In this document: piece after piece, positions 1 through 54,426 of the stretch
How the letters are laid out: each line of letters opens with the position of its first letter
Position numbering within the stretch: position 1 is the stretch's first letter
Source: a virus
Virus record (IMG/VR): IMGVR_UViG_3300030102_004176
Location: 1 to 56,058 of that record
Strand: one strand, 5' to 3'
DNA: 56,058 nt
The notes under the pieces: generated by a model
Seen by the model: the letters and a program-made list of their open reading frames with translations, nothing else
Told to the model about the DNA's origin: nothing
The model's database searches: none
Program-made: the position numbers and the translations under genes

Positions 1-114
1 ACAGCTGGTACAGGTCCTGGTGTGAATCCATTTGCTCAAGCTGTTGGAGCAGGAGTGGGAGCTTATAAAGCTTTTGATCTTCTTGGTGGCACAGGTATAT
101 CAGGAAGTAAATAA
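1..114 (+). CDS. C-terminus of a Gly/Ala-rich phage protein (5' end outside window)
   Basis: An open frame runs from the first base to TAA at 112-114 and encodes 37 residues rich in Gly and Ala, including GAGVGAYKAFDLLGG. Its stop overlaps the next start (TAATG). The composition resembles the Gly/Ala-rich gene that runs off the right end. Joining the two window ends directly does not keep frame: two extra bases (modulo 3) would be needed. It is therefore either the end of that gene across a small gap or a separate neighbour. Function unknown. Confidence 0.6.
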   Translation, partial: TAGTGPGVNPFAQAVGAGVGAYKAFDLLGGTGISGSK

Positions 115-2750
115 TGAGCAAAACTTTAAAAAGAAAATTGTTCAGGCACAAATATCAAATAGCCACGAAACAGGTGCCAGGACATATGGCTGGTATGCTC
201 ATAAATCCTCTCATGCAACTAGGTGCTAGAGTTGCACCTTATTTATCTCCGTATGCTATGGGTCTAAGACAAGCAGCACAACCAGTTATGCAAAGAGGTG
301 CTGAACTTGCAGGTAGAATAGGTCAGTCTCCAGCTGCAAAACTTGCCAAACGAGCGGGTAAAGCAATTGAAAAGTCACCATTTGGACAAGCTGCAGGGAA
401 AACTTTTTCTGTTTTATCTTTGCCTCTTGCTGGTGTTAGTGGTGGTAAAACTGTTTATGATACAACTATGGCTGCTAGTGATTTTATGGAGGGTGATGTC
501 GAAGGAGCAAAAGCTAGAGGTATTGAGGCTCTTCGTAGTGGTTTAGATACAGCTGCAGCAATTCCTTTTTTGCGACCAGGGGCATATTTGACCAGTAAAG
601 CGTTTACAGGAACAGGAAAAACGGGCATAACAAAACTAGCAGGTGAAATAACTCCTAAATTTGTTAAGAAAAATCCTTTAGTGTCAGAAATTCCAATAGC
701 TGCTGGTTATATGATGTTACCAGAGAATGCTGAAGGTCAGGAAATGTTTGACCCAAGTAAACCAAAAACAGCATCAGAATTAGGTTTATCTCCACCAACT
801 CCAGAAGACGAAGAACAAATAATTGATGACTCAACTAAAGATGCAACTGAACAAAATCTTGAAAGCACGCCACCCGATCAAAAACAACTATTAGTAAACT
901 CTGAAAATTTAGCAAGAGTCTATGGTCAGGCAGAAGGTGAATTAGCTGATGAAAGAAAAGATGTAACTTCTATGAAAAATGTTTTAAAAGAAACTGAACC
1001 TGAAATGTATGAAAAAGTTATGTCTGGAGAAGAGGGAGCTGATGTGAAAGAAGCTCAAGTAACACTTGATACTAACTTTGCTAGTGCAAATGAAACAGGT
1101 TTAATTAAAAACAATGTAAATCCCGATGGCGACAATAGTCTTGCAGGTAATGCTAATTATTCTGAAAATGAGACTTCATTAATGGAGATCGCTTCCGCTC
1201 AAGAGATAGAAGCTGGCAATATGTTAAAATCTCAAAAATTAATTAATGAATATGAAAAAAAATTAAATGATAGACAAAAACAATCTTTTGATGAATACAA
1301 AAAAACGTATCAACAAATGACTGGTGATGACGGAACTAACAATTATAGAGATATAGCTATATTCAAATGGGCTATGAGAATGATGAGTGCAAAAACAGCA
1401 CAAACAGGTATGGCAGGTTTTTTTGATGTGTTAGGTAGGTCCTCTTCTGCTTTAGCTGATGATATATTAGCGATTGATCAAAATGAAAAAGCTCAAAATA
1501 AATATATGGCTGAACGTTATTTAGATTACGAAAAATCATTTGATGCTACAACAGCACAAAATGACAAAGAAATATTTGCAGCTCAACTAGGTCTTGCTCA
1601 ACAATTAGAACAAAGGGCTTTCACAACAAATAGAGATGCAGCCGACAGAGCATTTCAAATGGCTAAGCTAGAAGCAGAATTAAGACAAAAAGCTGCAGCA
1701 GCGAAAGCAAAAGCAATGAGAGAAAATATGAAAGTTGATAACCCTGAAACTTACTTGTTAGAAGATAAAACTGTTTTTGGTGGACGTAGAAGTATAACTG
1801 TTTATCAAAATCCTCAAAAAGTACCGATGAAGTATGGTCCAGTTTATAATGAGAAAGGTCAAATTATTGATAGACAATTACAGCCTTTTACAGATGCTAA
1901 TGGTGTGCCTGCAGATTTAGATCAATACAGAAAAGTAAAATACAATGATACTCTGATTGCAAAAACTTTTAATTCTATGAAAATGGCAAACGAAGCCATG
2001 CGTTTCTCAAAACAGTTTGGTGATATTACTGATCAATTTGGCGATAATATTATTGGACTTTCAGGTGCTATTAAAATTCTTCAAACAAACTTTTTAGACG
2101 TCTTATCACAAGTTCCAGTAGTCGGTGGTGGTTTAGCAAGTAAACTAGGTGGAAATAATTTGAATGCTTTTGTAAATTCCAATATGTCCGATTCAGATTT
2201 TAAAAATGAATTAGCTAGACTTGCAGGGGTAACAGACTCTGGCGAAGCTGTGCCCCAAGAAAAAGTTGAAGAAATATTAGCAAAGTACGATGCCGATATT
2301 AAAGCTGCGGAGAAAGCTGTCAAATCAAGGACCTCAACATTTAAATTAGACAGAACAGATAGAACTCAAATTGAAGCCTTATCTTCATTAATGGTAATGG
2401 AACAGAGGATGAAATACGTTATTGCGCATGCAAACAAAGCAGGGGATAGATTAGCATTGTCAGATATTGCTTCTGCCGAAAAAAGAACAGAGATATTTCC
2501 TTTATTTAAAGCAAGACCACTCATAAAAGAAAACTACAAAAAGTTTTCACGAGATATGGAGACAGTTATGGCACAAAAATTTGAAGAATATTTACAGTAT
2601 GGTGGTGATCCAAATGTGATTATGAGAGCTTTTCCAGATAATGAGTGGGTGATAAAAACTTTAGATGAGCAAGGTATAAAACAAGAAAATATACCTTCTG
2701 AAGCTGATATAATTGAAAATTTAAAACGTAAAGGTTTAATTACATCATGA
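114..2750 (+). CDS. Large virion-associated protein (putative ejection/internal protein), 878 aa
   Basis: This is a long alternating Ala/Gly-rich and charged protein. The N-terminal ~230 residues are basic, with weakly hydrophobic Gly/Ala stretches. The middle (roughly 220-420) is acidic. A Lys/Glu/Gln-rich coiled-coil-like region spans about 400-560. I see no enzymatic motif. Its size, its place after the tail and glycosyltransferase genes (if the map is circular) and its tight coupling to a second giant gene (4-bp ATGA overlap) resemble the internal/ejection proteins of podoviruses. The role is inferred from position and composition only. Confidence 0.7.
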   Translation: MSKTLKRKLFRHKYQIATKQVPGHMAGMLINPLMQLGARVAPYLSPYAMGLRQAAQPVMQRGAELAGRIGQSPAAKLAKRAGKAIEKSPFGQAAGKTFSVLSLPLAGVSGGKTVYDTTMAASDFMEGDVEGAKARGIEALRSGLDTAAAIPFLRPGAYLTSKAFTGTGKTGITKLAGEITPKFVKKNPLVSEIPIAAGYMMLPENAEGQEMFDPSKPKTASELGLSPPTPEDEEQIIDDSTKDATEQNLESTPPDQKQLLVNSENLARVYGQAEGELADERKDVTSMKNVLKETEPEMYEKVMSGEEGADVKEAQVTLDTNFASANETGLIKNNVNPDGDNSLAGNANYSENETSLMEIASAQEIEAGNMLKSQKLINEYEKKLNDRQKQSFDEYKKTYQQMTGDDGTNNYRDIAIFKWAMRMMSAKTAQTGMAGFFDVLGRSSSALADDILAIDQNEKAQNKYMAERYLDYEKSFDATTAQNDKEIFAAQLGLAQQLEQRAFTTNRDAADRAFQMAKLEAELRQKAAAAKAKAMRENMKVDNPETYLLEDKTVFGGRRSITVYQNPQKVPMKYGPVYNEKGQIIDRQLQPFTDANGVPADLDQYRKVKYNDTLIAKTFNSMKMANEAMRFSKQFGDITDQFGDNIIGLSGAIKILQTNFLDVLSQVPVVGGGLASKLGGNNLNAFVNSNMSDSDFKNELARLAGVTDSGEAVPQEKVEEILAKYDADIKAAEKAVKSRTSTFKLDRTDRTQIEALSSLMVMEQRMKYVIAHANKAGDRLALSDIASAEKRTEIFPLFKARPLIKENYKKFSRDMETVMAQKFEEYLQYGGDPNVIMRAFPDNEWVIKTLDEQGIKQENIPSEADIIENLKRKGLITS

Positions 2751-5700
2751 ACATAGCAGAATTACAAAAGTCTTTCGACAACTTTGAGTTTGACCCTTCA
2801 CAGTATGGTGAAGAAGAATTGCAAGCTATAGATCAAGCTTTCAAAGGCGGAGTGTTACAAAACTTTTCTGGAGTTGGTCAATACCAAGGCGTAAGACAGT
2901 CTGCACAAAAAGATATTGCTAAAGGTATACAGCAAGAAGAAGAAACAGTTCCTGGTGTTACAATACCTGGTGTTGGCACAGTAATGACAGAAAAAGCTAG
3001 CTTTGAAACTTTTGGAGATGTAGCTGGCTCTTTCATACCTTATATTATGGATAGACAAAAGCTTATTGATGCCTTTAATCCAGAAACAAGTAGACAATTT
3101 GGTGTAAATTATAGAAAAGGTTTTGTTCAAAAAACTGCTGATTTAGCATCTAAACTTGAAAAGATACCTATGGTGAAACGTTTTGGAATGTTAGGTAGAA
3201 TGTTTGCTAGAACTGTAGGTACACTGGGAAATGCAGTTAGAAAAACTGATGATTTCTTAAAATATGGTGCAACACAAGCTACAAAAACAGAATTAAAATC
3301 TATTACTGGTGGAGCTTTAGGAGCAGCTGCGGGTTCTACTGCTTTTGACACAGTAAATAATTTACAAAAAGATTTTGCAGTTGGTGTTCAATATGATCTA
3401 GCTGATGTAGCTGAGAATGAAAAAGATAAATTATCTCCAGTACAAAGAACATTAGCAAATGCAATGGAGGCAGCTAAAAACTCTTTATTGTGGGCAGGTG
3501 GTATGAACGCTTTTGCTGAAGGGGCAGGTATTACAGCTAAAGCTTTTGCAAAGAAACTTACATCAACAGGTACACCAGAATCAAAAGAAGTTGGTGAGTT
3601 AGCAAAAAAATATGGTATTAATTTAAATTTAGGTCAAGCTGCAAAAGAGGGTGGTATCTTCGGTAACTTTATTAAAACGTATTTTGAAACTCTTGGTATT
3701 ATGCCAGGTGTTGCAGTGGTTGGTAAAAGACAAAGAGCACCACAAGAAAAAAAAGTAGGTGAAGCTATGTTTGAGTTTGCAGAAAACTTTGCACCTGTGA
3801 CCACGGCTCGCATCTTAGGGTATGAGGCTTTAGATGTAATAGATAACAATTACATACAATACATGAATTTGATTGATGAGGGTTTCAAACAACTGAAAAA
3901 TGAAGCCGATGCTATGGGTAATCCAAGAATGATACCAACTACCAAATTAAGAGAAATGGCTCAAGAATATATGGGCGATCTAAAAGATTTTGAAATTGGT
4001 AAATTAGGTTTAGACGAAGATAAAAGACTTTTTAAAATGTTAGCTAAAAACGACCCTGTCAATGCTTTGTTCTTAAAATTTGCAGATCAAGGTATATTTG
4101 ATGATAAATTTTTTCTTACACCAAAAGAATATTTACAACTTAGAAAAGATATAAATAAGTCTGTGAAAATGTCACCTAACAACAGATCAATACTACAAGC
4201 AGCCACAGGACTAAGAAGAGGTCTGGAACAAGATCTTGGATCTGTAGGACAGCCAGCTGTTCAACAACAAATATTACAAAAAAGTCCAGATTTTGCTGGA
4301 AAACAATTTGCGAACGCTGCTGAAAAAAATAAATTTATGGAAGATTCAGCTAAAAATCTTGAAGTTTTTGGAAATGAATTAATAAACAAATTTCATATGT
4401 ATTCTGCAATTACATCACCTTTTGAAAGTATGACAGCTAAAGAATTAAAAAAATTTGGTGACTATCTTTTTTCAGCCAAATCTGAACTAGGTGTTATGGG
4501 AGAGGCAAAACAAGTGCCTAGTAAAATGTTTGACTCTGTGATTACAGGTATTTTAAGAGATGGATCACCTGAAGCGTTGAATGAACTTAGGTTTTTAGTG
4601 GGAGCGACTGATAAAGGTTTTACTCGTACAGTAAAAGAAACTCTACCAGATGGTAAAGTTGTAGATAAGCAAATTAAAGTCGGTGAAAACTTTATGAACA
4701 AACTTACTTCACGATTTATTTATGATGCATTTTTTAAATCTTTTGCAAAACAACCTGATGAAACTCTAGCTAGAAACTTGGAATTATTTAAAGATCTACA
4801 AGAAAAAGGTATGGCACGAGGTGTGTTTGCTGACGAAGTATTAGATGCTGCAGGAGTGGCTGATATTGCAAAACTTAAAGAAATTCAAGCTGAAAAGACT
4901 ATGGCTAATAATGTAGAAAGAATTACCAAAGAACAAATAGAAGTAAACTTAACACCAGAAGGTTTAGGTGAATTTCAAGGTATGGATGTTTTAAGAAAAA
5001 ATTTAGGTTTAAATAATGCTGACGGCAGTGTAAATCAAGCAGGTAGAGAAAAACTACAAATATTGTTTGGCACTGGTGAAAAGGGTGCAAAACAATTAAA
5101 AGATTTAGAAGACTTTTTAGATGTTGTAGAAAGATTTAATTCCCAGTCTATTGGTGAGAGTAGCCGATTCCTTACTCGAAGAATTGGCTTGACAGGTTTA
5201 TCCTTAACAGCTGGTACCATAGGTGCTTTTACAGGTGGTCTAGGAGTTGGTTTTATGGGTCTAATCTTGACTCCTTTATTATTAAGAGGTGTTGGTGGTT
5301 TGGTATCAAACCCTAAATATATGAAAGCTTTACTAGATGTTTACACACCTGATGAAAGATTAGCTCGACTTGGTAAAGGTTCTTTTAAAGATGCTCCTTT
5401 TATTGATCCTCTTCAACCGCTCGGTAAATATTTATCACCATCAAAAAGAAGATCATTAGGAATTTTATTAAATTATTTTAAAAGTTCAGAAGATGAAGTT
5501 CCTATAGACCCTGATACTATGACAGCAGAACAAATAAGAGATTATCTTTCAAACAAAGTAAGAACTATGGTCCCTAACACAGCTATGAAAATGTCTGATC
5601 TACCACCTAATCAAATTAAAAAAATGTTTCCTGATGTGCACCTTTATCAGAATTCATCTTTAGAAGATAGAGCAAAGTATGATGAAATACTTGCTGGTGG

Positions 5701-5965
5701 TATTAAAGCAAGAGCATTCACAGATGCAGTGCGTGATGCTGATAATGAAAGTGCCGTAAGAAATGTAAGCTTAGATGCGATGATCAGAAATCCTCAAGCT
5801 ATGCAACTTGCACAAAGTGCTCCTAGTGCACCAAGACAAGAAGAAATGACCACGCCTCAGCAGCCAGCTGCAACAGGTATGCAAAGACAAGGATTGTTTG
5901 CATCTCTATTTCCTAATGATCCTACTTTACAAATGTTAAGTCAGAGGAAACAAAACAATGCCTGA
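2747..5965 (+). CDS. Giant virion-associated protein (putative ejection protein), 1072 aa
   Basis: The start overlaps the upstream stop by 4 bp. The protein is largely helical and charged, with Gly/Ala-rich weakly hydrophobic segments near 185-200 and 240-260. A strongly hydrophobic Gly-rich stretch near residues 820-850 (TGGLGVGFMGLILTPLLL) could insert into a membrane. The C-terminus is Gln/Pro/Ser rich. No peptidoglycan hydrolase motif was recognised. The pair with the 878-aa gene looks like podovirus proteins that leave the head with the DNA and form a trans-envelope channel. That role is inferred from size, hydrophobic pattern and position. Confidence 0.7.
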   Translation: MNIAELQKSFDNFEFDPSQYGEEELQAIDQAFKGGVLQNFSGVGQYQGVRQSAQKDIAKGIQQEEETVPGVTIPGVGTVMTEKASFETFGDVAGSFIPYIMDRQKLIDAFNPETSRQFGVNYRKGFVQKTADLASKLEKIPMVKRFGMLGRMFARTVGTLGNAVRKTDDFLKYGATQATKTELKSITGGALGAAAGSTAFDTVNNLQKDFAVGVQYDLADVAENEKDKLSPVQRTLANAMEAAKNSLLWAGGMNAFAEGAGITAKAFAKKLTSTGTPESKEVGELAKKYGINLNLGQAAKEGGIFGNFIKTYFETLGIMPGVAVVGKRQRAPQEKKVGEAMFEFAENFAPVTTARILGYEALDVIDNNYIQYMNLIDEGFKQLKNEADAMGNPRMIPTTKLREMAQEYMGDLKDFEIGKLGLDEDKRLFKMLAKNDPVNALFLKFADQGIFDDKFFLTPKEYLQLRKDINKSVKMSPNNRSILQAATGLRRGLEQDLGSVGQPAVQQQILQKSPDFAGKQFANAAEKNKFMEDSAKNLEVFGNELINKFHMYSAITSPFESMTAKELKKFGDYLFSAKSELGVMGEAKQVPSKMFDSVITGILRDGSPEALNELRFLVGATDKGFTRTVKETLPDGKVVDKQIKVGENFMNKLTSRFIYDAFFKSFAKQPDETLARNLELFKDLQEKGMARGVFADEVLDAAGVADIAKLKEIQAEKTMANNVERITKEQIEVNLTPEGLGEFQGMDVLRKNLGLNNADGSVNQAGREKLQILFGTGEKGAKQLKDLEDFLDVVERFNSQSIGESSRFLTRRIGLTGLSLTAGTIGAFTGGLGVGFMGLILTPLLLRGVGGLVSNPKYMKALLDVYTPDERLARLGKGSFKDAPFIDPLQPLGKYLSPSKRRSLGILLNYFKSSEDEVPIDPDTMTAEQIRDYLSNKVRTMVPNTAMKMSDLPPNQIKKMFPDVHLYQNSSLEDRAKYDEILAGGIKARAFTDAVRDADNESAVRNVSLDAMIRNPQAMQLAQSAPSAPRQEEMTTPQQPAATGMQRQGLFASLFPNDPTLQMLSQRKQNNA

Positions 5966-6743: not shown

Positions 6744-7022
6744 ATGCAAAAAAAAATGAAATCAAAAGGCTATGCCAAAGGTGGAGCCAAAATGATGAAA
6801 GCTATGGGCGGAAAAATGATGAAGTCTAAAGGTTACGCTAAGGGTGGAGCTAAAATGATGAAAGCTAAATCAGGTAAAATGATGAAAGCTATGGGCGGAA
6901 AAATGATGAAGTCCAAAGGTTACGCTAAAGGCGGAGCTAAAATGGTTAAAGCTAGTATGGGTGTAGCTGCTATGAAATCGGCTTTAAAGAAAAAAGGTTT
7001 CAAGGTCACAAAAATAAAATAA
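6744..7022 (+). CDS. Lys/Met/Gly-rich tandem-repeat basic protein, 92 aa
   Basis: Good Shine-Dalgarno (AAGGAG) 8 bases before ATG. About 30% Lys and 20% Met, with no acidic residues seen. It is built from repeats of KGYAKGGAKMMKA and GGKMMKS; the KGYAKGG block occurs three times. The C-terminal 25 residues (MKSALKKKGFKVTKIK) are non-repetitive. The composition suggests nucleic-acid condensation or packaging. It stands alone between two gaps, directly downstream of the 23-bp inverted motif, so it may be transcribed separately. Function unknown. Confidence 0.65.
   Translation: MQKKMKSKGYAKGGAKMMKAMGGKMMKSKGYAKGGAKMMKAKSGKMMKAMGGKMMKSKGYAKGGAKMVKASMGVAAMKSALKKKGFKVTKIK
6765..6950 (+). repeat. 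In-frame tandem repeats inside the Lys/Met-rich gene
   Basis: Copies of the KGYAKGGAK-encoding block begin at 6765, 6828 and 6915, so the spacings are 63 and 87 bases, both multiples of three. Copies differ at synonymous positions (for example TAT/TAC, GCC/GCT), which points to older duplication under coding selection rather than very recent slippage. Confidence 0.75.
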
Positions 7023-16692: not shown

Positions 16693-16947
16693 ATGAAAAC
16701 ATTTATTAAATCAAAAAGAACAATAAGTTTTTTACAACAAATAGAAAAGGCTCTACGACAAGTTGAAGCCACTGATTTTAGGGGCAATCCTTATGATGAT
16801 GGTGATGTCGCTGAGCATGTGAAAGATTTTAAAAAAATTGTATATCAATGTCCTGACACAGGTGTAGAACATCAAGTATTTGGCACAGATTTAGCAGCAG
16901 CTATGATAAAATCAGAAAACTTGGCTAAATGTGGGCAAGATGACTAA
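16693..16947 (+). CDS. Hypothetical protein, 84 aa
   Basis: Basic N-terminal helix (KTFIKSKRTISFLQQIEKAL) followed by an acidic region (NPYDDGDVAEHVKDF) and a short part with Cys residues. It is the first gene of the transcript that also carries the PAPS-reductase-like gene, with which it overlaps by 8 bp. The predicted promoter leaves essentially no untranslated leader. No family recognised. Confidence 0.6.
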   Translation: MKTFIKSKRTISFLQQIEKALRQVEATDFRGNPYDDGDVAEHVKDFKKIVYQCPDTGVEHQVFGTDLAAAMIKSENLAKCGQDD

Positions 16948-17785
16948 CCCTTTTTTGTTAGAAACTCCTGGTGTCATAAACTTTTCCGGAGGCAGAACGT
17001 CTGGCTTTATGTTGCGAAAAATACTAGATGCTTTCGATGATAAGCTACCAAAAGATTTACCCGTTTGTTTTGCTAACACCGGTAAAGAGATGCCACAAAC
17101 TTTAGATTTTGTGCACGAGTGCTCTACAAAATGGAGTGTTCCTATTGTGTGGATGGAGTGGGATGATCAATCAGAAAACCATTTAAAAATTGTTGATTAT
17201 GAAACAGCATCAAGAAAAGGTGAACCTTATGAAAAATTAATAGACAGTAAAAGATTTTTACCTAACCCTGTTACAAGATATTGTACGTCTTATTTAAAAA
17301 TTAAAACTATGCGGGCATATTGTATGTTTCATTTAGGTTTTGAACATTGGATGTCTTATGTGGGTCTTAGATATGATGAGCCACATAGGGTAGCTAGACT
17401 GTCCAATCGTAATAAAAAAGAAAGATGGGAAACAGAAGCACCTTTACATAATGCAAAAATTACAGTGCAAAATGTTTTTGATTTCTGGAAAGATAATGAT
17501 TTTGATTTACGTTTACCAAATATTGGTGGTAAAACACCACAAGGTAATTGTGATTTGTGTTTTTTAAAAGGTGCAAACACAATAAAAAATATAATGAAAT
17601 CAGACCCAAAATTAGCTGATTGGTGGATATCTCAAGAAAGTAAAAAGATGGGCACGGGAAATGATCGTGCTGCATACTTTCGTAAGGACAGACCAAGCTA
17701 CGCTAAATTACTACAAAACACTGAAAATCAACTTGAATTATTTGAGTTTGATCAAGCAACCGATACATGTTTTTGTCACGATTAG
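16940..17785 (+). CDS. PAPS-reductase-like adenine nucleotide alpha hydrolase
   Basis: The N-terminus carries a PP-loop of ATP pyrophosphatases (INFSGGRTSGFML, residues 13-25), followed by VCFANTGKEMPQTLDFV, the second signature of the phosphoadenosine-phosphosulphate reductase family. A Cys pair in GNCDLCFLKG and a terminal CFC could bind a metal or a cluster. Phage members are common, and whether they reduce PAPS or activate another substrate (as DndC- or tRNA-thiolation-type relatives do) is unresolved. I use ATG 16940 rather than GTG 16931. Confidence 0.8.
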   Translation: MTNPFLLETPGVINFSGGRTSGFMLRKILDAFDDKLPKDLPVCFANTGKEMPQTLDFVHECSTKWSVPIVWMEWDDQSENHLKIVDYETASRKGEPYEKLIDSKRFLPNPVTRYCTSYLKIKTMRAYCMFHLGFEHWMSYVGLRYDEPHRVARLSNRNKKERWETEAPLHNAKITVQNVFDFWKDNDFDLRLPNIGGKTPQGNCDLCFLKGANTIKNIMKSDPKLADWWISQESKKMGTGNDRAAYFRKDRPSYAKLLQNTENQLELFEFDQATDTCFCHD

Positions 17786-25434: not shown

Positions 25435-25463
25435 TTGCATTTTCTTATGACCTAGATTATAGT
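25435..25463 (+). promoter_or_regulatory. Promoter of the terL/structural operon
   Basis: TTGCAT (25435-25440), 17 bp, TATAGT (25458-25463). The ATG at 25471 starts seven bases after the -10, so transcription would start at or beside the initiation codon. ATTAACAATTTG (25477-25488), close to the operator-like site of units 1-3, overlaps the first codons. Confidence 0.55.
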
Positions 25464-25470
25464 GTTTTGT

Positions 25471-26946
25471 ATGTCAATTAACAATTTGACCACAGACAAA
25501 TTGAGGCTCGAAGTAGAGAGACTCTTGATAAAAAACATTAAACTGTGCCAAGATAATTTTTTATATTTTGTAAAAGAGATGTGGCCTGATTTTATATATC
25601 GTAAAACCAAACTAAGGGATAACTGGGGTCATCATCAAATCATAGCAAATGAATTTACTAAAGTAGCTTCAGATAAAAAAGGGAGGCTCATAATAAATAT
25701 GCCTCCTAGACACACTAAATCAGAATTTGCTTCAATTTATTTTCCGGCATGGATGATAGGGAAGTTTCCTAAAATGAAAATTATGCAAGTATCACATAAC
25801 ACAGAACTTGCAGTACGATTTGGTTCTAAGGTTCGAAACATTGTTGGTTCATCTGAGTATAAACAAATCTTTGGTGACGTCAGATTGCGAGAAGATTCAA
25901 AAGCCAAAGGTAGATGGGAGACTAATCAAGGGGGTGAATATTACGCAGCTGGCGTCGGGGCGTCCATCACGGGTCGTGGTGCGGACTTACTGATTATTGA
26001 TGATCCACACACGGAACAAGATTCTTTATCTGACATGGCGATGGAACGTGCTTATGAATGGTATGCTTCAGGTCCAAGACAGCGTTTACAACCTGGAGGT
26101 TCAATTTTATTAGTAATGACGAGATGGGCAGAAGATGATTTAACCGGTCGTTTATTGAAGGCTCAAACTGAACCGAAAGCAGATTCTTGGCGTCAAATTT
26201 CATTCCCAGCGATCCTCGGTTCAGGGAACCCAGTCTGGCCTGAGTACTGGAACTTAGAAGAATTAGAAAAGATCAAAGCATCATTACCGATACGAAACTG
26301 GTCTGCTCAGTATATGCAGAATCCAACCAGTGAGGAAGGTGCAATTTTAAAACGAGAATGGTGGCGACCTTGGAAAGGACCCATACCGAATTTGATGCAT
26401 GTCATACAAAGTTATGATACAGCGTTCAGTAAGAGAGAGACAGCTGACTATTCAGCCATAACAACTTGGGGTGTATTTTTTCCAGAAGAAGGTGGGGGAC
26501 CCAATATAATTTTACTTGATGCTTTACGGGGTAAGTATGATTTTCCAGAATTAAAAGCAGTCGCTTTAGATGCACATAAGTATTGGGAACCCGAAAGTAT
26601 TATTATTGAACAGAAAGCTAGTGGTGAACCTTTGACTCAAGAGTTTAGAAGAATGGGTATACCGGTCATACCATTTGTTCCAAGTAAGGGTAATGACAAA
26701 CATACACGTGTTAATGCGACCTCTCCTATTTTTGAAAGTGGTGCTGTATGGTATCCGTATGGTGAGCATTTTGCAGAAGAAGTGATAGAGGAGTGTGCTG
26801 CATTTCCAAATGGTGCAAATGACGATTATGTTGACTCAACGACTCAAGCCCTACTAAGGTATCGCCAAGGCAACTTTGTTGAGTTATACTCAGATTATAT
26901 AGATAACGAGGATAGACCTCCTAAGGAATATAGATATTATGGATGA
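25471..26946 (+). CDS. terL: Terminase large subunit
   Basis: 491 aa from ATG 25471 (GTG 25462 is less likely). ATPase: PPRHTKSE (residues 78-85) as Walker A-like loop, LLIIDDPH as Walker B, and TRWAEDD as coupling motif. Nuclease domain: IQSYDTAFSKRE, IIIEQKASGEPL and NDDYVDSTTQAL supply the acidic metal ligands. This is an intact packaging motor and headful or unit-length nuclease. There is no Shine-Dalgarno, consistent with a leaderless start. The stop overlaps the next gene by 8 bp. Confidence 0.95.
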   Translation: MSINNLTTDKLRLEVERLLIKNIKLCQDNFLYFVKEMWPDFIYRKTKLRDNWGHHQIIANEFTKVASDKKGRLIINMPPRHTKSEFASIYFPAWMIGKFPKMKIMQVSHNTELAVRFGSKVRNIVGSSEYKQIFGDVRLREDSKAKGRWETNQGGEYYAAGVGASITGRGADLLIIDDPHTEQDSLSDMAMERAYEWYASGPRQRLQPGGSILLVMTRWAEDDLTGRLLKAQTEPKADSWRQISFPAILGSGNPVWPEYWNLEELEKIKASLPIRNWSAQYMQNPTSEEGAILKREWWRPWKGPIPNLMHVIQSYDTAFSKRETADYSAITTWGVFFPEEGGGPNIILLDALRGKYDFPELKAVALDAHKYWEPESIIIEQKASGEPLTQEFRRMGIPVIPFVPSKGNDKHTRVNATSPIFESGAVWYPYGEHFAEEVIEECAAFPNGANDDYVDSTTQALLRYRQGNFVELYSDYIDNEDRPPKEYRYYG

Positions 26947-29278
26947 AGAGAATCAAGAATCGGGTGGTCCAGGTATATTTGGTGTACTTGGTGGAATCGG
27001 GGCAGCTGCTCTAGCATTACCTAAAGCAAGAAGAAAAATAGTAAAAGGCATCGGCGAGTTTTTTAGAGACGACGATAAAAAATTTAAAACTAGCGTAGAT
27101 AGATTTGCATCAAAAGCAGAGGCTCAAAAAGCTGAAAACATATCACAAGAGGTGTCAAAAGATTATCCCGATTTATACAAAGCCAATGAAGCGGCAATAA
27201 AAGAACAACAAGAGTTAGAAGATATTAGAAAAGCTGTACTAAAAAAACCTTTAAGTTTTGGTGGTAAGATTGATGATCCAGAACACAACTACACAGATCA
27301 ACTTGATGCTGTGCGTTTACCTGATTATAATTTTGGTTCAACACTTTATGATTTTGTAGCTTTACATCCGTCTAAAAAACCACTTACTGCTCAGCAGTGG
27401 TTGAGTGAATTCAAGAATCCACAAAGGATGGCAAACCTGAAGTATAAAACACCAGGTTTTGAAAACATAAAAGCAGGAGTTTCAAGACAAGAATTAAGTG
27501 ATGCAAATATCGCTGAGTTCGATGACAGCGGTAAATTAATTGGTGGTATTCTTAAATCAGCAGAAGATTCTAATGTTAAGGTAGGCAAAAAGATGTTACT
27601 GGATATGGCGTATGATACACCGGGTGCACGTTTACAAGTTACTGAATATGGTTTACCTATTAAGACAGTTAAAAAGGTAGAAGCTTTTTTAGATAAGGCA
27701 GAAGAAAGTTTAGCACATGAAGCACAAGTTGGGTATAAAAAAATTAGAAACGTGCTCGCTAAAGAAGCTGGTAATATTTTAGAAACAGAACAAAGGGCTA
27801 AAACTAAAAAAAACTTGGACGCAGTTTTAACATCACAATATGATCCTCTTGTGGATATGGCCGCACGCAATCTCGCAAAAATTAAAATGCAATTTACAAG
27901 GAATGATGCGATGGGCTTGGCAGGAGAAAAAGCCCTTAATGTAAATGCCAATATAATGCGACAGTTAAAAGACATAGAATTTCGTACAGGTATTTTTGAT
28001 ATGTTTAAAAATAATTTTGCTAGAGATAATATTCCAAAAACAAAAGCTGCTGTCGAAACATTTCAACAGACAGTGCCTAACAAAGCAAAAGAAGATTTAA
28101 GAGCTATGATGGGTGACATAGCTCGAGATTATGAGAAATTAAAGGGCAGTTCTATTAGAAGTGGTAATACTTCATACGGACAGCACGATGAATACAGGTT
28201 GAGTGGGCCTGAGACCTATCAAGAATTAATTGTTAACCTTACACCAAGAGCAGGAAGTTATAAAGGAAGAAGACCAGTAACTACAAAACACTATGGTCGA
28301 GATGCGCAGGCAACAGATCAACTATATTTTGTTCGTTATGGTGTACGTTCTGACTTCTACAATCCTGATATGAAAGGAATTACTATTGATGAGATACAAG
28401 CCGATATAGCACAACAGGTAAGAAAAAATAATCAAAAGCCACCAAACCCTTTTAATATTAATTTTCAAGAAAAACTTGTTGAGGAAAGAATCAAGGAAAT
28501 CCTACCACGGGCCAGGGAACTTTCTAATAAGGGTGTAAATATGACACCGAAAGAAAGACAAGAATTACGAGAAATAAATAATTCTGCTGCTACTTTGTAC
28601 AGATCGACAAGAAGAAGACGTGCGGATAGTCAGGTAGATAATCAGTCTACAACTAATTTTCAACCTTTGCAGGACAGTTCTGATTATGCTGAGCACGCTG
28701 TAAAGGTACTAATTAAAAAAGCGATGAGAGATGATTTAGATTTTATATCGGTAAACACTGTAGATGTTCAACATAATTTTAAACATCCAAATGCTGGTTA
28801 TAAAGGTATGGAAAATTTTTACGGAATGCAATCAGGTAGAAGTACTGCGCAAAAAGAAGCAATCTTAGAGGGTAAAAAAGTACCTCCTCTACCCGACGGC
28901 GAACTTGTAAAAGCAATGAAGAATATTGCTAAACAATACAATGGTCGTGTTGATAAAAGAATGGTCGCAAAAAGCGACCCTAGTAAACCATTCAAGGTAA
29001 TTAGGACTCTAAGCGATAAAACTATAGCTAATGTAGAGCCTGGACAAAAACCAAAACAATTTGATGAACACCTTGCAGCCTTCAAATCAAAAGCTGAAGT
29101 TGATGCGTATACTAGAGATCGGCAGGGTGAGGGTTTGAAAATAGAAAAGATAGAAGGTAGTGATCCAAAAAATTATTATGAGATACCTACTCTTGTAATA
29201 ACACCAGAAATGAAAACAAAACCTTTTAAAATATATAAGAGAGAAGGTGGACTAGTCGTAGACTTGTTTAAATGGTAG
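26939..29278 (+). CDS. Large polyvalent-type protein with EIQ(S/A)D-like domain, 779 aa
   Basis: A Gly-rich start (GIFGVLGGIGAAALALPKA) gives way to long charged helices. Near residues 430-500 are TTKHYGRDAQATDQLYFVRY and GITIDEIQADIAQQ, followed at about 595-625 by HAVKVLIKKAMRDDLDFISV and, further on, ENFYGMQS and IAKQYNGRVDK. This is the order seen in the LPD/'EIQSDW' domain of polyvalent proteins that large phages and conjugative elements inject into hosts. The position between TerL and portal suggests it is packaged in the virion. Confidence 0.65.
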   Translation: MDEENQESGGPGIFGVLGGIGAAALALPKARRKIVKGIGEFFRDDDKKFKTSVDRFASKAEAQKAENISQEVSKDYPDLYKANEAAIKEQQELEDIRKAVLKKPLSFGGKIDDPEHNYTDQLDAVRLPDYNFGSTLYDFVALHPSKKPLTAQQWLSEFKNPQRMANLKYKTPGFENIKAGVSRQELSDANIAEFDDSGKLIGGILKSAEDSNVKVGKKMLLDMAYDTPGARLQVTEYGLPIKTVKKVEAFLDKAEESLAHEAQVGYKKIRNVLAKEAGNILETEQRAKTKKNLDAVLTSQYDPLVDMAARNLAKIKMQFTRNDAMGLAGEKALNVNANIMRQLKDIEFRTGIFDMFKNNFARDNIPKTKAAVETFQQTVPNKAKEDLRAMMGDIARDYEKLKGSSIRSGNTSYGQHDEYRLSGPETYQELIVNLTPRAGSYKGRRPVTTKHYGRDAQATDQLYFVRYGVRSDFYNPDMKGITIDEIQADIAQQVRKNNQKPPNPFNINFQEKLVEERIKEILPRARELSNKGVNMTPKERQELREINNSAATLYRSTRRRRADSQVDNQSTTNFQPLQDSSDYAEHAVKVLIKKAMRDDLDFISVNTVDVQHNFKHPNAGYKGMENFYGMQSGRSTAQKEAILEGKKVPPLPDGELVKAMKNIAKQYNGRVDKRMVAKSDPSKPFKVIRTLSDKTIANVEPGQKPKQFDEHLAAFKSKAEVDAYTRDRQGEGLKIEKIEGSDPKNYYEIPTLVITPEMKTKPFKIYKREGGLVVDLFKW

Positions 29279-29286
29279 TATAACGA

Positions 29287-29619
29287 ATGGCAAAAAAAAG
29301 AAAAACATTAGAAGAAAGATTTAGTCTAGATGACATCGTTTTAGGTACTGATTTTGAAGGTGCCTTTTTTGATGAACCCGAACAACCTAAATTAAAACCA
29401 AGCAACATGATTGGTGAAATAGCCTCTAAAAATAAAGCGTTTAAAAAAGCTAACAGAAAAAGACGCATGTACCCTTTACCAGTAAGCAGCATATCAGAAG
29501 ATGTTGTCAAGTTAGCTCCATATCAAGTTATACCTGAAGCAATGAAAAAAGCTAGTAAAGGTGAGTTTGTCATGGTAAAAACAAAAATAGGTAAAAACAA
29601 AAAAACAAGGATTACATAA
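29287..29619 (+). CDS. Basic hypothetical protein before the portal, 110 aa
   Basis: Lys/Arg-rich (MAKKRKTLEERF, then NKAFKKANRKRRMYPLP; KIGKNKKTRIT at the end) with an acidic loop (DFEGAFFDEPEQP). Shares one base with the portal start (TAATGG). Possibly a head or DNA-contact protein; no family recognised. Confidence 0.6.
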   Translation: MAKKRKTLEERFSLDDIVLGTDFEGAFFDEPEQPKLKPSNMIGEIASKNKAFKKANRKRRMYPLPVSSISEDVVKLAPYQVIPEAMKKASKGEFVMVKTKIGKNKKTRIT

Positions 29620-31952
29620 TGGATGATGAAGATAATCTAGAAGAACAGGTTCAACCTGTTGATGTTGAAATTGAAGAACCTACCGATGAAGTTGTAGAAG
29701 AACAAGATGAACCTCAACAAGATTTTAATGCAAACTTAGCCGAAAACCTTGACGATAGAGTTTTAACATCTATGGCTCAACAGTTAATTTCTGATTACAG
29801 AAAAGACAAAGAGTCTAGAGGGGATTGGGAAAAATCATATACATCTGGACTTGATTTACTGGGTTTTAAATATGAGGGCGAGGGTCAACCTTTTAGAGGA
29901 GCTTCAAGTGTAACACACCCCTTACTTGCTGAATCCGTGACACAGTTTCAGGCACAAGCTTACAAAGAATTATTACCAAGTGATGGACCTGTAAAAACTA
30001 TGGTTGTAGGAGATGCAACTCCAGACAAAATAGATCAAGCTCAAAGAGTCAAAGACTTTATGAATTATATGGTTACAGAAGTTATGGAAGAGTATACACC
30101 AGAATTTGATCAAATGTTATTTTATTTACCTCTTGCAGGATCATCATTTAAAAAAGTTTATTACGACGATTTAATGCAGCGCGCTGTCAGTAAATTTGTT
30201 CCAGCAGAAGATTTAGTTGTGCCCTATTATGCATCCGATTTGAAAGACTGTGAAAGAATTACACACTGTATCAAGATGAGCGAAAATGATTTACTAAAAA
30301 AAATAAGCACAGGATTCTATAGAGATGTAAAAATTTATCCTACAGCTGCTGACGATAATGAAGTTCAGGATAAATATGACGAATTGGAGGGACTATCTCC
30401 AACTAAAGATAAAGAGTATCAGTATAATATTCTTGAAATGCATGTTGATATTGATTTAGAAGAATACGAGGTTGAAAATTCTGAAAAGAAAATAAAAGTA
30501 CCTTACATTGTTACTATCGATGAGGGATCACAAGAGGTTTTAAGTATATATCGAAACTATTTACCTGACGATCAATTATTTACTAGGCGTGAATATTTTG
30601 TGCATTACAAGTTTTTGCCCGGTTTAGGGTTTTATGGTTTTGGTTTAATACATATGATTGGTGGTTTGAGTAGAACTGCAACTGCTGCATTAAGACAATT
30701 GTTAGATGCAGGGACTTTAGCAAACTTACCAGCAGGTTTTAAGTCTAGAGGACTACGAATTAGAGACGATGAACAACCATTTCAACCAGGAGAGTTTAGA
30801 GATGTTGATGCACCTGGTGGAAATATTAAAGATCAGTTTCAAATTTTGCCTTTTAAAGAGCCTAGTAGCGTCTTAATGCAGCTTTTAGGCTTTGTTGTTC
30901 AAGCTGGACAGCGTTTTGCCTCTATTGCAGACATGCAAATTGGTGAAGATTCACAAAATCGTGCAGTTGGAACAACTTTGGCTCTTATGGAACGTGGTTC
31001 TAGGGTAATGAGTGCTATTCATAAGCGTTGTTACTACTCAATGCGACAAGAATTTAGACTTTTATCTAATGTTTTTGCCGAATATTTACCACCTGACTAC
31101 CCATACGCTGTTTATGGTGCCGATAGAGTGGTAAAAGCATTAGATTTTTCACCAGAAGTTGATGTTATACCAGTTGCGGACCCAAATTCTTTCTCAATGA
31201 GTCAAAGAGTAACGTTAGCATCACAACAATTACAAATTGCAAATGCTGCACCACAATTACACAACATTAGGGAGGCATATAGACGTGTTTATGAGTCTTT
31301 AGGTGCAAAAAAGATAGATGATTTACTTTTACCAGAAAAAAAACCAGAACCTATGGACCCTGGTGCAGAAAATTCACTAGCTTTACAAGCAAAACCACTT
31401 AAAGCATTTTATTTTCAAAACCATGATGCTCATATTGCAGCTCACGCTGCATTTATACAATCAAGAATGGTGCAGGCTAACCCTTTAGTGTATTCAATAT
31501 TACAAGCACACATATCTGAACATATTTCTTTCAAAGCAAGAGCACAAACTCTTCTATATATTAAAACAGAAAGACCTGATTTAGTTGAACTAGAGCAAAC
31601 AGATCCACAAGCATATCTTGCTGAATCAGAATCTATCATAGCTAGAACGATTGCTGAACTTACACAACAATTAGTTATGGCTGAGCAGGGCACAGAAAAA
31701 CCAGACCCTGTTGTAATGCTTAAAAACAGAGAACTTGATATTAAAGCTATGGATATGCAGAGAAAAGCTGCTGAGTTCCAGCAACAAGAACAAAGAAAAA
31801 CAGGTGAGTTTGACGAACGTATTGATCTTGATAAAATGAAAAGAGAAGATGCTGAAGAAGCATCAAAAGAAAGAATAAGAGTAGCTGATGAAAAGCTTGA
31901 GTTAAATGCTTTTAAAGTTGGCTTAGATCAGGCAGGTAAAAAAAATGAGTGA
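29619..31952 (+). CDS. Portal protein
   Basis: 777 aa. After an acidic N-terminus, FRGASSVTHPLLAESVTQFQ, AYKELLPSDGPVKT and YLPLAGSSFKKVYYDD match the portal family of marine podoviruses I recall, with an overall length like P22/N4-type portals. GFGLIHMIGGLSRTATAALR lies about where the central helix would be. The C-terminal ~120 residues form a Gln/Glu/Lys-rich helical barrel (MDMQRKAAEFQQQEQRKTGE). It forms the dodecameric DNA gate and docks TerL and the tail adaptors. Confidence 0.85.
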   Translation: MDDEDNLEEQVQPVDVEIEEPTDEVVEEQDEPQQDFNANLAENLDDRVLTSMAQQLISDYRKDKESRGDWEKSYTSGLDLLGFKYEGEGQPFRGASSVTHPLLAESVTQFQAQAYKELLPSDGPVKTMVVGDATPDKIDQAQRVKDFMNYMVTEVMEEYTPEFDQMLFYLPLAGSSFKKVYYDDLMQRAVSKFVPAEDLVVPYYASDLKDCERITHCIKMSENDLLKKISTGFYRDVKIYPTAADDNEVQDKYDELEGLSPTKDKEYQYNILEMHVDIDLEEYEVENSEKKIKVPYIVTIDEGSQEVLSIYRNYLPDDQLFTRREYFVHYKFLPGLGFYGFGLIHMIGGLSRTATAALRQLLDAGTLANLPAGFKSRGLRIRDDEQPFQPGEFRDVDAPGGNIKDQFQILPFKEPSSVLMQLLGFVVQAGQRFASIADMQIGEDSQNRAVGTTLALMERGSRVMSAIHKRCYYSMRQEFRLLSNVFAEYLPPDYPYAVYGADRVVKALDFSPEVDVIPVADPNSFSMSQRVTLASQQLQIANAAPQLHNIREAYRRVYESLGAKKIDDLLLPEKKPEPMDPGAENSLALQAKPLKAFYFQNHDAHIAAHAAFIQSRMVQANPLVYSILQAHISEHISFKARAQTLLYIKTERPDLVELEQTDPQAYLAESESIIARTIAELTQQLVMAEQGTEKPDPVVMLKNRELDIKAMDMQRKAAEFQQQEQRKTGEFDERIDLDKMKREDAEEASKERIRVADEKLELNAFKVGLDQAGKKNE

Positions 31953-32397: not shown

Positions 32398-32497
32398 ACT
32401 TGAAAAATTAGTAAATATAATTATTGTTTTGTGTATTATAGAAATTATGATACATTCTGTAGAAGTAATGATTGATATACTACCTTACATAAAATGA
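32387..32497 (+). CDS. Small single-helix membrane protein, 36 aa
   Basis: GTG 32387 lies in the end of the previous gene. A hydrophobic helix (LVNIIIVLCIIEIMI) is followed by a short acidic/amphipathic tail. ATGA overlap with the methyltransferase-like gene supports a real, coupled gene. Function unknown. Confidence 0.45.
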   Translation: MSDKLEKLVNIIIVLCIIEIMIHSVEVMIDILPYIK

Positions 32498-33096
32498 TTA
32501 TAAAAGGCGACTCTACAGAATACCATTTACTCACTAAACACATAGGTAAACTTAAAATAGACAGAGCCACTTTGACTTGTGAAATAGGTCTAAGAGAAGG
32601 TTTAGGTTCGAAGATAATTATGGATGCAATTAGAGATCACAAACCACCACTTTATAAACATGTCGCTGTTGATCCGTACAATAATTTAAGTTATCAGCAT
32701 ACTGATGATGAGAAAGAGACCAGTGCTGATTACACAGAAGATATGAAACAAAGAGTTGTTTCTTATTTATATCAAAACTATCAAGAGTTTGATTTTTATC
32801 ATATGACAGATGAGTATTATTTTGAAGCTATGAAAGATGGACATCAGTTTTCAATTAATGGTAACTGTATGATATATGGCTTATACAAAGTTGTTCATCT
32901 TGATGGACCACATACGACGCATGCTGTCTTAGAAGAATTAAAGTTTTTTATCCCACGTATGGATGAAGAGGGTTTAATAATAATAGATGATTACACACGC
33001 CTTAAGATGGGTATTGTGGATATGCTCCTGAAGACTTATAATTTTAATGTTGCTGAAAAAGGTGACAATAAAATTATTTTTAAAAAGGAGATATAA
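32494..33096 (+). CDS. Class I methyltransferase-fold protein (Methyltransf_24/TylF-like)
   Basis: 200 aa. LTCEIGLREGLGSKIIMDAI is motif I of a Rossmann SAM-binding site, KHVAVDPYNNL gives the acidic residue after strand 2, and VHLDGPHTTHAVLEEL is the 'HIDG-H' motif found in macrocin-O-methyltransferase-like enzymes. GLIIIDDYTR closes the sheet with a DD that may bind metal. The substrate is unknown; a sugar, a small metabolite or virion glycan is plausible. It sits in the portal-holin part of the late operon. Stop and next start share a base. Confidence 0.75.
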   Translation: MIIKGDSTEYHLLTKHIGKLKIDRATLTCEIGLREGLGSKIIMDAIRDHKPPLYKHVAVDPYNNLSYQHTDDEKETSADYTEDMKQRVVSYLYQNYQEFDFYHMTDEYYFEAMKDGHQFSINGNCMIYGLYKVVHLDGPHTTHAVLEELKFFIPRMDEEGLIIIDDYTRLKMGIVDMLLKTYNFNVAEKGDNKIIFKKEI

Positions 33097-53314: not shown

Positions 53315-53500
53315 ACAAAAATAATACATTGTGAATCTAAAACTAAGATCACAAACAAAAGAACTGGTAAAGTATATGCATCAGAAAAAGAAGCTAAATT
53401 CGATGTCGAGGACAAATTGTCTGCTACAACTGAGGAGGACATTCAAAGGGACGTTACAATTATCGTTCCACAGTTGGATATTGAAGGAGGAACAGATTGA
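53312..53500 (+). CDS. Small hypothetical protein, 62 aa
   Basis: IIHCESKTKITNKRTGKVYA then a Lys/Glu-rich helix and DIQRDVTIIVPQLDIEGGTD at the end. It contains the AAGGAGG ribosome site of the glycosyltransferase gene within its last codons. No family recognised. Confidence 0.6.
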   Translation: MTKIIHCESKTKITNKRTGKVYASEKEAKFDVEDKLSATTEEDIQRDVTIIVPQLDIEGGTD

Positions 53501-54426
53501 ACCCGTTGGGAGGAACTGAACTTCAAAACAATTTTTTACATAAAAATGTTAAAAAAGAGTTGTTAGAAGGTGTTCAAATCTGTTTATCTGTTCCTGAAAA
53601 AACACCTTTATCTAAAGATAAAGTAAATATCTTATGGCAAAAAAATGCCCCAAACCAACCTAATATTGAGCCTTGGTTTAAAAATAAAGAAAATCACACA
53701 AAATACGATTGGTATGTATTTAATTCACATTGGAATTATGAACAGTTTAGAAAAAGTTTTAATCTACCAACTGACAGATGTCATGTAATTAAAAATGGTG
53801 TAACAAGTTTTCCTAAGGTAAATAATTTCAACGAAGGAGATCGTTTAAGAATTGTACATCATAATACGCCTTGGAGAGGTTTAAATGTGTTATTGGGTGC
53901 TATGCAATATCTTGAGGGTGAAAATATTGAGCTTGATGTATATAGCAGTTGTGAAATATACGGAGATGAATTTAAAAAAGATAATGATCACAATTATAAA
54001 GAATTGTATGATCAAGCCAGAGAACTATCAAACGTAAATTATATCGGGTATAGAACAAATGATTTTATATTAAGTAAATTACCAAATTATCATCTGTATG
54101 TGTATCCAAGTATATGGGAAGAAACATCATGCATTTCTTTGTTAGAGTCTATGGCAGCTGGCTTATACTGTGTCGTGACTAATTATGGTGCTATTTACGA
54201 AACAGGGTCAGAGTTTCCTATATATATTAACTATGAAACAAATTTTAATAATCTTGCATTCCAATTTGCAGAAGCTATTAAAGTAGCACGGGACACGCTT
54301 CACGAACCTATGATTAGAAAACATTTGTCTTTACAGCAAGATTTTGTAAAAAGATTTTATTGTTGGGAAAAAAAGGCACACGAATGGACTAATTTTCTTA
54401 CAGGTGTTTTAGATGCAAAACAATAA
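53497..54426 (+). CDS. GT-B-fold glycosyltransferase (GT4-like)
   Basis: TTG start supported by AAGGAGG about 8 bases upstream. YVFNSHWNYEQFRKSF and VIKNGVTSF, RIVHHNTPWRGLNVLLGAMQ and the EETSCISLLESMAAGLYC segment (E-x7-E-like) match retaining GT4 enzymes that use a nucleotide sugar. In phages such enzymes modify DNA, host surface glycans or virion proteins. Paired with a GT-A-type gene. Confidence 0.8.
   Translation: MNPLGGTELQNNFLHKNVKKELLEGVQICLSVPEKTPLSKDKVNILWQKNAPNQPNIEPWFKNKENHTKYDWYVFNSHWNYEQFRKSFNLPTDRCHVIKNGVTSFPKVNNFNEGDRLRIVHHNTPWRGLNVLLGAMQYLEGENIELDVYSSCEIYGDEFKKDNDHNYKELYDQARELSNVNYIGYRTNDFILSKLPNYHLYVYPSIWEETSCISLLESMAAGLYCVVTNYGAIYETGSEFPIYINYETNFNNLAFQFAEAIKVARDTLHEPMIRKHLSLQQDFVKRFYCWEKKAHEWTNFLTGVLDAKQ

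Follow-up and report, generated by a model that had tools for sequence, protein, structure and literature searches.

A 779-residue protein assigned to the EIQSD family, with a predicted GNAT-like domain, in a variable accessory-gene slot between terminase and portal

The 56,058-nucleotide stretch of viral DNA analyzed here (IMG/VR record IMGVR_UViG_3300030102_004176; the window) encodes a 779-residue protein, P0001, between the genes for the terminase large subunit (TerL) and the portal protein. Profile comparisons place P0001 almost certainly in the EIQSD domain family, as a true but diverged member, and structure predictions make it very probable that this domain has a GNAT-like fold. The interval between TerL and portal is a slot for accessory genes, several of which are of the polyvalent type. 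We propose, with a probability of roughly 0.5, that P0001 is a late-expressed accessory effector that would be loaded into the virion. The open reading frame (ORF) of P0001 is uninterrupted and occurs as a single copy in the record, and its neighbors confirm the position that a first-pass annotation of the window had given it.

Family membership

P0001 alone has no significant match in Pfam, PHROGs, PDB sequences or INPHARED (tblastn). The first-pass annotation had proposed an EIQSD-type domain of the polyvalent proteins and had set against this a match to structural or scaffold families only; no such family matches P0001 in PHROGs or Pfam. Proteins with the string EIQSDWHQ were gathered from IMG/VR by a DNA pattern, which gave at least 121 occurrences in at least 120 loci. 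A profile of 117 EIQSDWHQ proteins ranks P0001 first among 405 targets (200 shuffles together with all window frames of at least 60 residues), but only at an expectation value (E) of 0.05. In hhalign, residues 423-613 of P0001 align with the EIQSDWHQ proteins at a probability of 91-93%, and the N-terminal half, used as a control, at 0.1%. An iterative profile search in a set of 317 proteins (Z=20000), started from P0001, reaches its relatives from the slot (36 including P0001), then 54 and then all 121 of the 121 EIQSDWHQ proteins at E≤1e-3, which places P0001 in the family. The proposed identity is thus upheld, and both peptides quoted in its favor are present in the protein.

The residues H451, R466, E485, Q487 and D489 of P0001 represent the invariant H, R, E, Q and D set of the family (alignments A3 and A6). 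The segment WHQxGRxxGY, common after EIQSD in canonical members but not in the subfamily of P0001, is absent from P0001, which reads EIQADIAQQVRKNNQ; P0001 is therefore classed in a diverged subfamily and not with the canonical members.

Uncultivated phages commonly carry EIQSD domains, but the isolate collection searched has almost none: tblastn finds the domain in 2 of 50,697 phage records of that collection and in 5 of 72,556 plasmid records, and the pattern finds it in 65 genome loci. Set against at least 120 IMG/VR stretches, the phage-record and plasmid counts do not agree with the earlier description of the domain as one mostly of large temperate phages and plasmids. Scans of 68 members turned up no Pfam or NCBIfam model for the domain; phrog_7348, a PHROG labeled endolysin, matches 59 of the 68. 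Apart from the polyvalent-protein paper of Iyer et al. (2017; PMC5512222), word searches judged mostly by title found no open-licence paper describing the domain, and the string "EIQ" does not occur in the main text of that paper.

The domain also occurs in larger architectures. Two of the four long proteins scanned carry it fused to LPD22 (E 1e-14) and GGDEF (E 4e-10), the proteins with LPD22 or GGDEF being 2769 and 3429 residues long, and a Pseudomonas aeruginosa plasmid protein containing the domain carries an LPD23 annotation. Together with the ART-PolyVal-like and large polyvalent structure matches given below, these proteins bear out the polyvalent link of the first-pass annotation. P0001 shows one recognizable enzyme-like domain in its model and so does not clearly count as polyvalent in a narrow sense.

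Predicted fold and conserved polar residues

The full-length AlphaFold2 model of P0001, built on 112 sequences, has a predicted local distance difference test score (pLDDT) of 80 and a predicted template modeling score (pTM) of 0.81. In it, a helical module at the N-terminus is accompanied by long helices and a single GNAT-like domain; Pfam gives no match above the cut-off. A second model was built for L056, a compact canonical domain of 420 residues (68 sequences; pLDDT 87.7, pTM 0.80), and the two models, which draw partly on the same alignments, are not fully independent.

Comparison of the P0001 model with the PDB using VIA-align yields many GNATs at Z scores of 6.5-8.4, as well as helical bundles corresponding to the long helices of the model. 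For the L056 model, all 50 PDB rows listed are GNAT-fold (Z 7.2-9.7), with 50 chains at Z≥8, and the GNAT-fold matches include ICL2, Rv1916, AtaT, TacT3, KacT, GCN5 and NatD. The C-terminal domain of ICL2/Rv1916 and LasI, which are among the structure matches, we take to be GNAT-like. Among viral structures, unnamed phage proteins are the best matches of the P0001 model, and GP88, ART-PolyVal-like and large polyvalent protein associated entries rank lower. An assignment of the EIQSD domain to ART-PolyVal or another fold is disfavored by the 50 rows listed for L056, which do not thereby exclude other folds. The first-pass annotation had anticipated an "LPD fold", but LPD does not denote one single fold, and the models of P0001 and L056 are GNAT-like. 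The profile of alignment A6 has no match among PDB sequences, the best E being 0.31.

In the L056 model, strands at residues 65-70, 149-157, 182-193 and 198-206, the last of which ends in EIQ, precede a helix, which is followed by a strand at 257-260, a helix at 352-374 and strands at 379-383 and 392-398; this predicted order of secondary elements is GNAT-like. The P0001 model additionally contains helical insertions within the domain, at residues 241-402 and 509-564. A conserved set of polar residues (E429, H451, R466, R470, E485, Q487 and D489 in P0001; E153, H175, R187, R191, E204, Q206 and D208 in L056) lies on or beside strands 2-4 and is invariant or nearly so in the 112 and 68 highly diverged sequences, E485 and Q487 being invariant among the 112. 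In the models, this cluster is likely the active site of the domain, and the predicted GNAT-like fold makes group transfer its likely reaction. That P0001 itself is an active transferase is less likely than not. The predicted fold and the polar cluster provide a concrete, testable idea of EIQSD function.

The interval between TerL and portal

Across 121 loci that have TerL followed by portal, a mixture of loci found via the portal, via P0001 and via the EIQSD pattern, the interval ranges from an 8-nucleotide overlap to 7.3 kb. The first-pass annotation had suggested comparing this interval in related phages. Of the 90 loci found via the portal (L141 and L217 left out, near-identical phages kept), an EIQSD gene occupies the interval in 27 and another large gene in 17; the other 46 have a small gene there or none. 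Since these 46 loci hold no large gene, P0001 is regarded as accessory and not core. In the tally of slot proteins over 118 loci, from which L007, L141 and L217 were dropped as copies, the family of the 110-residue partner protein encoded between P0001 and the portal occurs 23 times with EIQSD genes and 27 times without any large gene.

A homologous portal is present in 25 EIQSDWHQ loci, and in 24 of these the EIQSD gene lies directly upstream of it. Among 88 distinct relatives that bear the P0001 tail, all 78 testable cases have a portal downstream, and 35 of the 38 testable for TerL have it upstream. The slot is thus recurrent in this phage group, contrary to the first impression that no such gene is expected in a head operon. 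Iyer et al. (2017; PMC5512222) place phage polyvalent proteins usually near virion genes, with which the occupancy of the slot by accessory genes agrees. Other occupants include PcfJ (L021), DUF6884 (L205, L187) and LPD23 (L206, E 3e-17). INPHARED contains 18 relatives with a portal match, and in the nine whose slot was inspected no EIQSD gene is present; four have other large genes (PcfJ in one, GP88 in another, and a pair of large genes in each of the remaining two) and five have a small gene or none. The slot offers an address for finding candidate effectors of SAR11 phages and related phages. In phage record MW202675.1 (about 38.2-44.1 kb), the EIQSD match lies approximately 3 kb downstream of the portal, not upstream.

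C-terminal tails

The last 14 residues of P0001 (YKxxGGLVVDLFKW) form the most conserved window of the protein, with a value of 0.685 versus a mean of 0.236 in an alignment of 20 diverse full-length relatives from which the near-identical rows L006 and L003 were left out. The final 10 residues are disordered in the model (pLDDT <50). The exact tail pattern has 137 matches, of which 136 are on P0001-like proteins; the exception is L389, in which the match lies 87 residues from the end. With a tail profile at E≤0.01, all 152 of 152 matches are EIQSD proteins. On these counts, the exact tail was rejected as a portable signal.

In the wider phage group, EIQSD slot proteins end in a different tag, GG[KR]VxISxNPDTMxxEL, which is also found after PcfJ-type modules of the neighboring slot protein. 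It has 38 matches at E≤0.01, on 26 EIQSD and 12 non-EIQSD proteins; 11 of the latter carry a PcfJ-type module, and the PcfJ-type profile matches no EIQSD protein. Of 55 slot families, 26 have a GG within the last 25 residues, against an expectation of 8.2; among 121 other families the count is 19, with 11.6 expected. Families were joined by single linkage for this count, and non-slot families from one locus only were dropped. The clusters from a clustering of the neighbors were not used because, under single linkage, repeats had drawn unrelated bodies together. The GG patterns were spotted after the fact and could also stem from duplicated gene ends between neighbors.

The capsid-targeting sequence of T4 and the cargo peptides of encapsulins are analogues for tags that direct loading into the procapsid. 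Because the GG[KR]VxISxNPDTMxxEL tag spans EIQSD and PcfJ-type modules and GG is enriched in slot families, the interval might, by this analogy, be a cargo bay of interchangeable effectors that share short GG loading tags closing each module, with EIQSD as a new GNAT-fold family using a donor other than acetyl-coenzyme A (acetyl-CoA); this extended idea is speculative and on balance improbable. The conserved tails do suggest a loading signal that can be tested. In the wider group, KAxGGxxxxDDLILEERPL is often the C-terminus of the first slot protein (L019 5117-8566, L021 5892-9137 and others), immediately ahead of where the EIQSD gene begins, and a ribosome-binding site may account for part of this.

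Proposed role

In the proposed mechanism, P0001 would be produced alongside the packaging motor and the portal and, we infer, for that reason enter the procapsid, with the conserved disordered tail acting as the docking peptide. It would then exit with the DNA and, as infection begins, target a host component by way of the E429/H451/R466/R470/E485/Q487/D489 cluster. The whole chain, an accessory effector with loading, injection and host action, stands in our estimate at about even odds.

Several results weigh against this proposal. The exact tail has no unrelated carriers in the sequences compared, so its status as a portable loading signal appears unsupported, and a GG directly after the end of the EIQSD domain is not more common beside this portal (2 of 7 versus 8 of 33), for which reason it was also rejected as a marker of the slot. 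Foldseek searches of the PDB at E≤1e-3 return zero matches for the P0001 model and only two for the L056 model, and Z scores below 8 can stem from a common arrangement. Of the 25 Pfam families that head the list of matches for 68 EIQSD members, none is a GNAT family. The acetyl-CoA loop motif of GNATs is [QR]xxGx[GA], located after β4; in its strict form it is found in 0 of 22 P0001 relatives and in 18 of 121 canonical proteins. Because this motif is not matched, the domain is called GNAT-like in fold and not a GNAT enzyme, and the absence of the usual CoA-binding loop implies that its donor may be other than acetyl-CoA.

The missing loop, together with the large helical insertions within the fold, also suits a catalytically dead domain with a binding or adaptor function, whose conserved residues are structural. 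The E, H, R, R, E, Q and D on or beside strands 2-4, all invariant or nearly so, form an enzyme-like pattern, however, which makes this explanation less likely than not, though more probable than the other rivals. A head structural or assembly protein, such as a portal or core accessory factor that remains in the procapsid or exits from it and has no action on the host, would account for the tight operon with TerL and portal, for the position kept in most large relatives and for the long helices of the model. Such a role is less probable still, given that about half of the portal-found loci (46 of 90) do without a large gene, that no scaffold or structural family matches, and that the domain recurs in the 2769- and 3429-residue proteins with LPD22 or GGDEF and in bacterial genomes and plasmids. 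Least probable is a protein made late that acts in the same infected cell without injection, for example by excluding competing phages or modifying packaging: a late-operon location is by itself no proof of loading, but slot neighbors and relatives carry domains of a class proposed as injected (PMC5512222).

The locus and other features of the window

The features of the locus are listed in Table 1. TerL, P0001, the 110-residue ORF and the portal form a tight operon, in which the 3' end of TerL overlaps the start of P0001 by 8 nucleotides and another 8 nucleotides separate the end of P0001 from the next ORF. The portal shares 65% identity with its counterpart in Pelagibacter phage HTVC023P, and judging from sequence the source virus is a marine podovirus of the HTVC023P type, a SAR11-infecting type. 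A close search found six relatives of P0001 in IMG/VR (91-100% identity), and the order of neighbors is the same wherever these are covered. Synonymous exceed non-synonymous codon differences between P0001 and two relatives (107 versus 67 and 116 versus 69). In one close relative (L005 6001-8282, on the same contig as L217), the gene is broken into ORFs of 494 and 245 residues, which may be a sequencing error or a natural break. Within P0001, residues 12-28 are, as judged by eye, a possible membrane segment, and residues 130-240 resemble by eye the module that precedes EIQSD in canonical proteins (compared with L056 and L019).

Table 1. Features of the P0001 locus, in window coordinates
Feature	Position	Strand	Basis
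TerL (terminase large subunit), upstream neighbor	25462..26946	+	phrog_38 E 4e-116; Terminase_6C
P0001, EIQSD-family protein, 779 residues	26939..29278	+	ATG start; ORF analysis and profile membership
Glycine-rich hydrophobic stretch, residues 12-28	26972..27022	+	Sequence; similar in several family members; low model confidence
N-terminal module, residues 130-240 (TAQQW...GVSRQEL...KKMLL...VTE)	27326..27658	+	Conservation 0.344, second to the tail
EIQSD domain, predicted GNAT-like fold, residues 228-763	27620..29227	+	AlphaFold2 model, structural matches, profile membership
EIQAD motif, residues 485-489	28391..28405	+	End of predicted strand β4, start of next helix
C-terminal tail YKREGGLVVDLFKW, residues 766-779	29234..29275	+	Rank 1 of 766 14-residue windows for conservation
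110-residue partner ORF between P0001 and portal	29287..29619	+	Iterative profile, 57 slot proteins
Portal (head-tail connecting) protein, downstream neighbor	29619..31952	+	phrog_1216 E 4e-48

Elsewhere in the window, a gene for a Methyltransf_24-type methyltransferase (32494-33096, Pfam E 1.3e-10) lies inside the head operon soon after the portal. Two very large ORFs of 878 and 1072 residues (114-5965), without a PHROG match at E≤0.001, are possibly internal virion proteins. A lysine-rich ORF of 92 residues (6744-7022) is built of near-repeats of KGYAKGGAKMMKAMGG, and the auxiliary genes include a phosphoadenosine phosphosulfate reductase-like gene (16931-17785) and a glycosyltransferase-like gene (53497-54426). 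An exact terminal repeat of at least 20 bases was not found between the two ends of the window (1-56058), and an ORF runs past the right end, so the virus record may be incomplete.

Comparison with known systems

The source virus resembles the HTVC023P-type pelagiphages (PMC9599517) in its portal and in the order of the GroES and capsid genes. Their slots are occupied differently, by a 201-residue gene in HTVC023P and by two other large genes in HTVC027P, neither of which is EIQSD by the tests used here. Like the polyvalent proteins of PMC5512222, P0001 is encoded near virion genes and shares its domain with giant multi-domain proteins, whereas it shows one recognizable enzyme-like domain in place of several disparate ones.

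The EIQSD domain shares its predicted fold and strand order with the GNAT acyltransferases (AtaT, TacT, GCN5, NatD and the C-terminal domain of ICL2), but the CoA loop motif is mostly missing, the insertions are large, and no sequence match arose in the searches made. The closest counterparts are the EIQSDWHQ-type proteins of uncultivated phages, to which P0001 is linked by the domain recovered with the iterative profile, by the predicted GNAT-like strand order and by the position upstream of the portal in one phage group. P0001 differs from them in that it reads EIQAD in place of EIQSDWHQ, lacks WHQxGRxxGY and carries a tail of its own.

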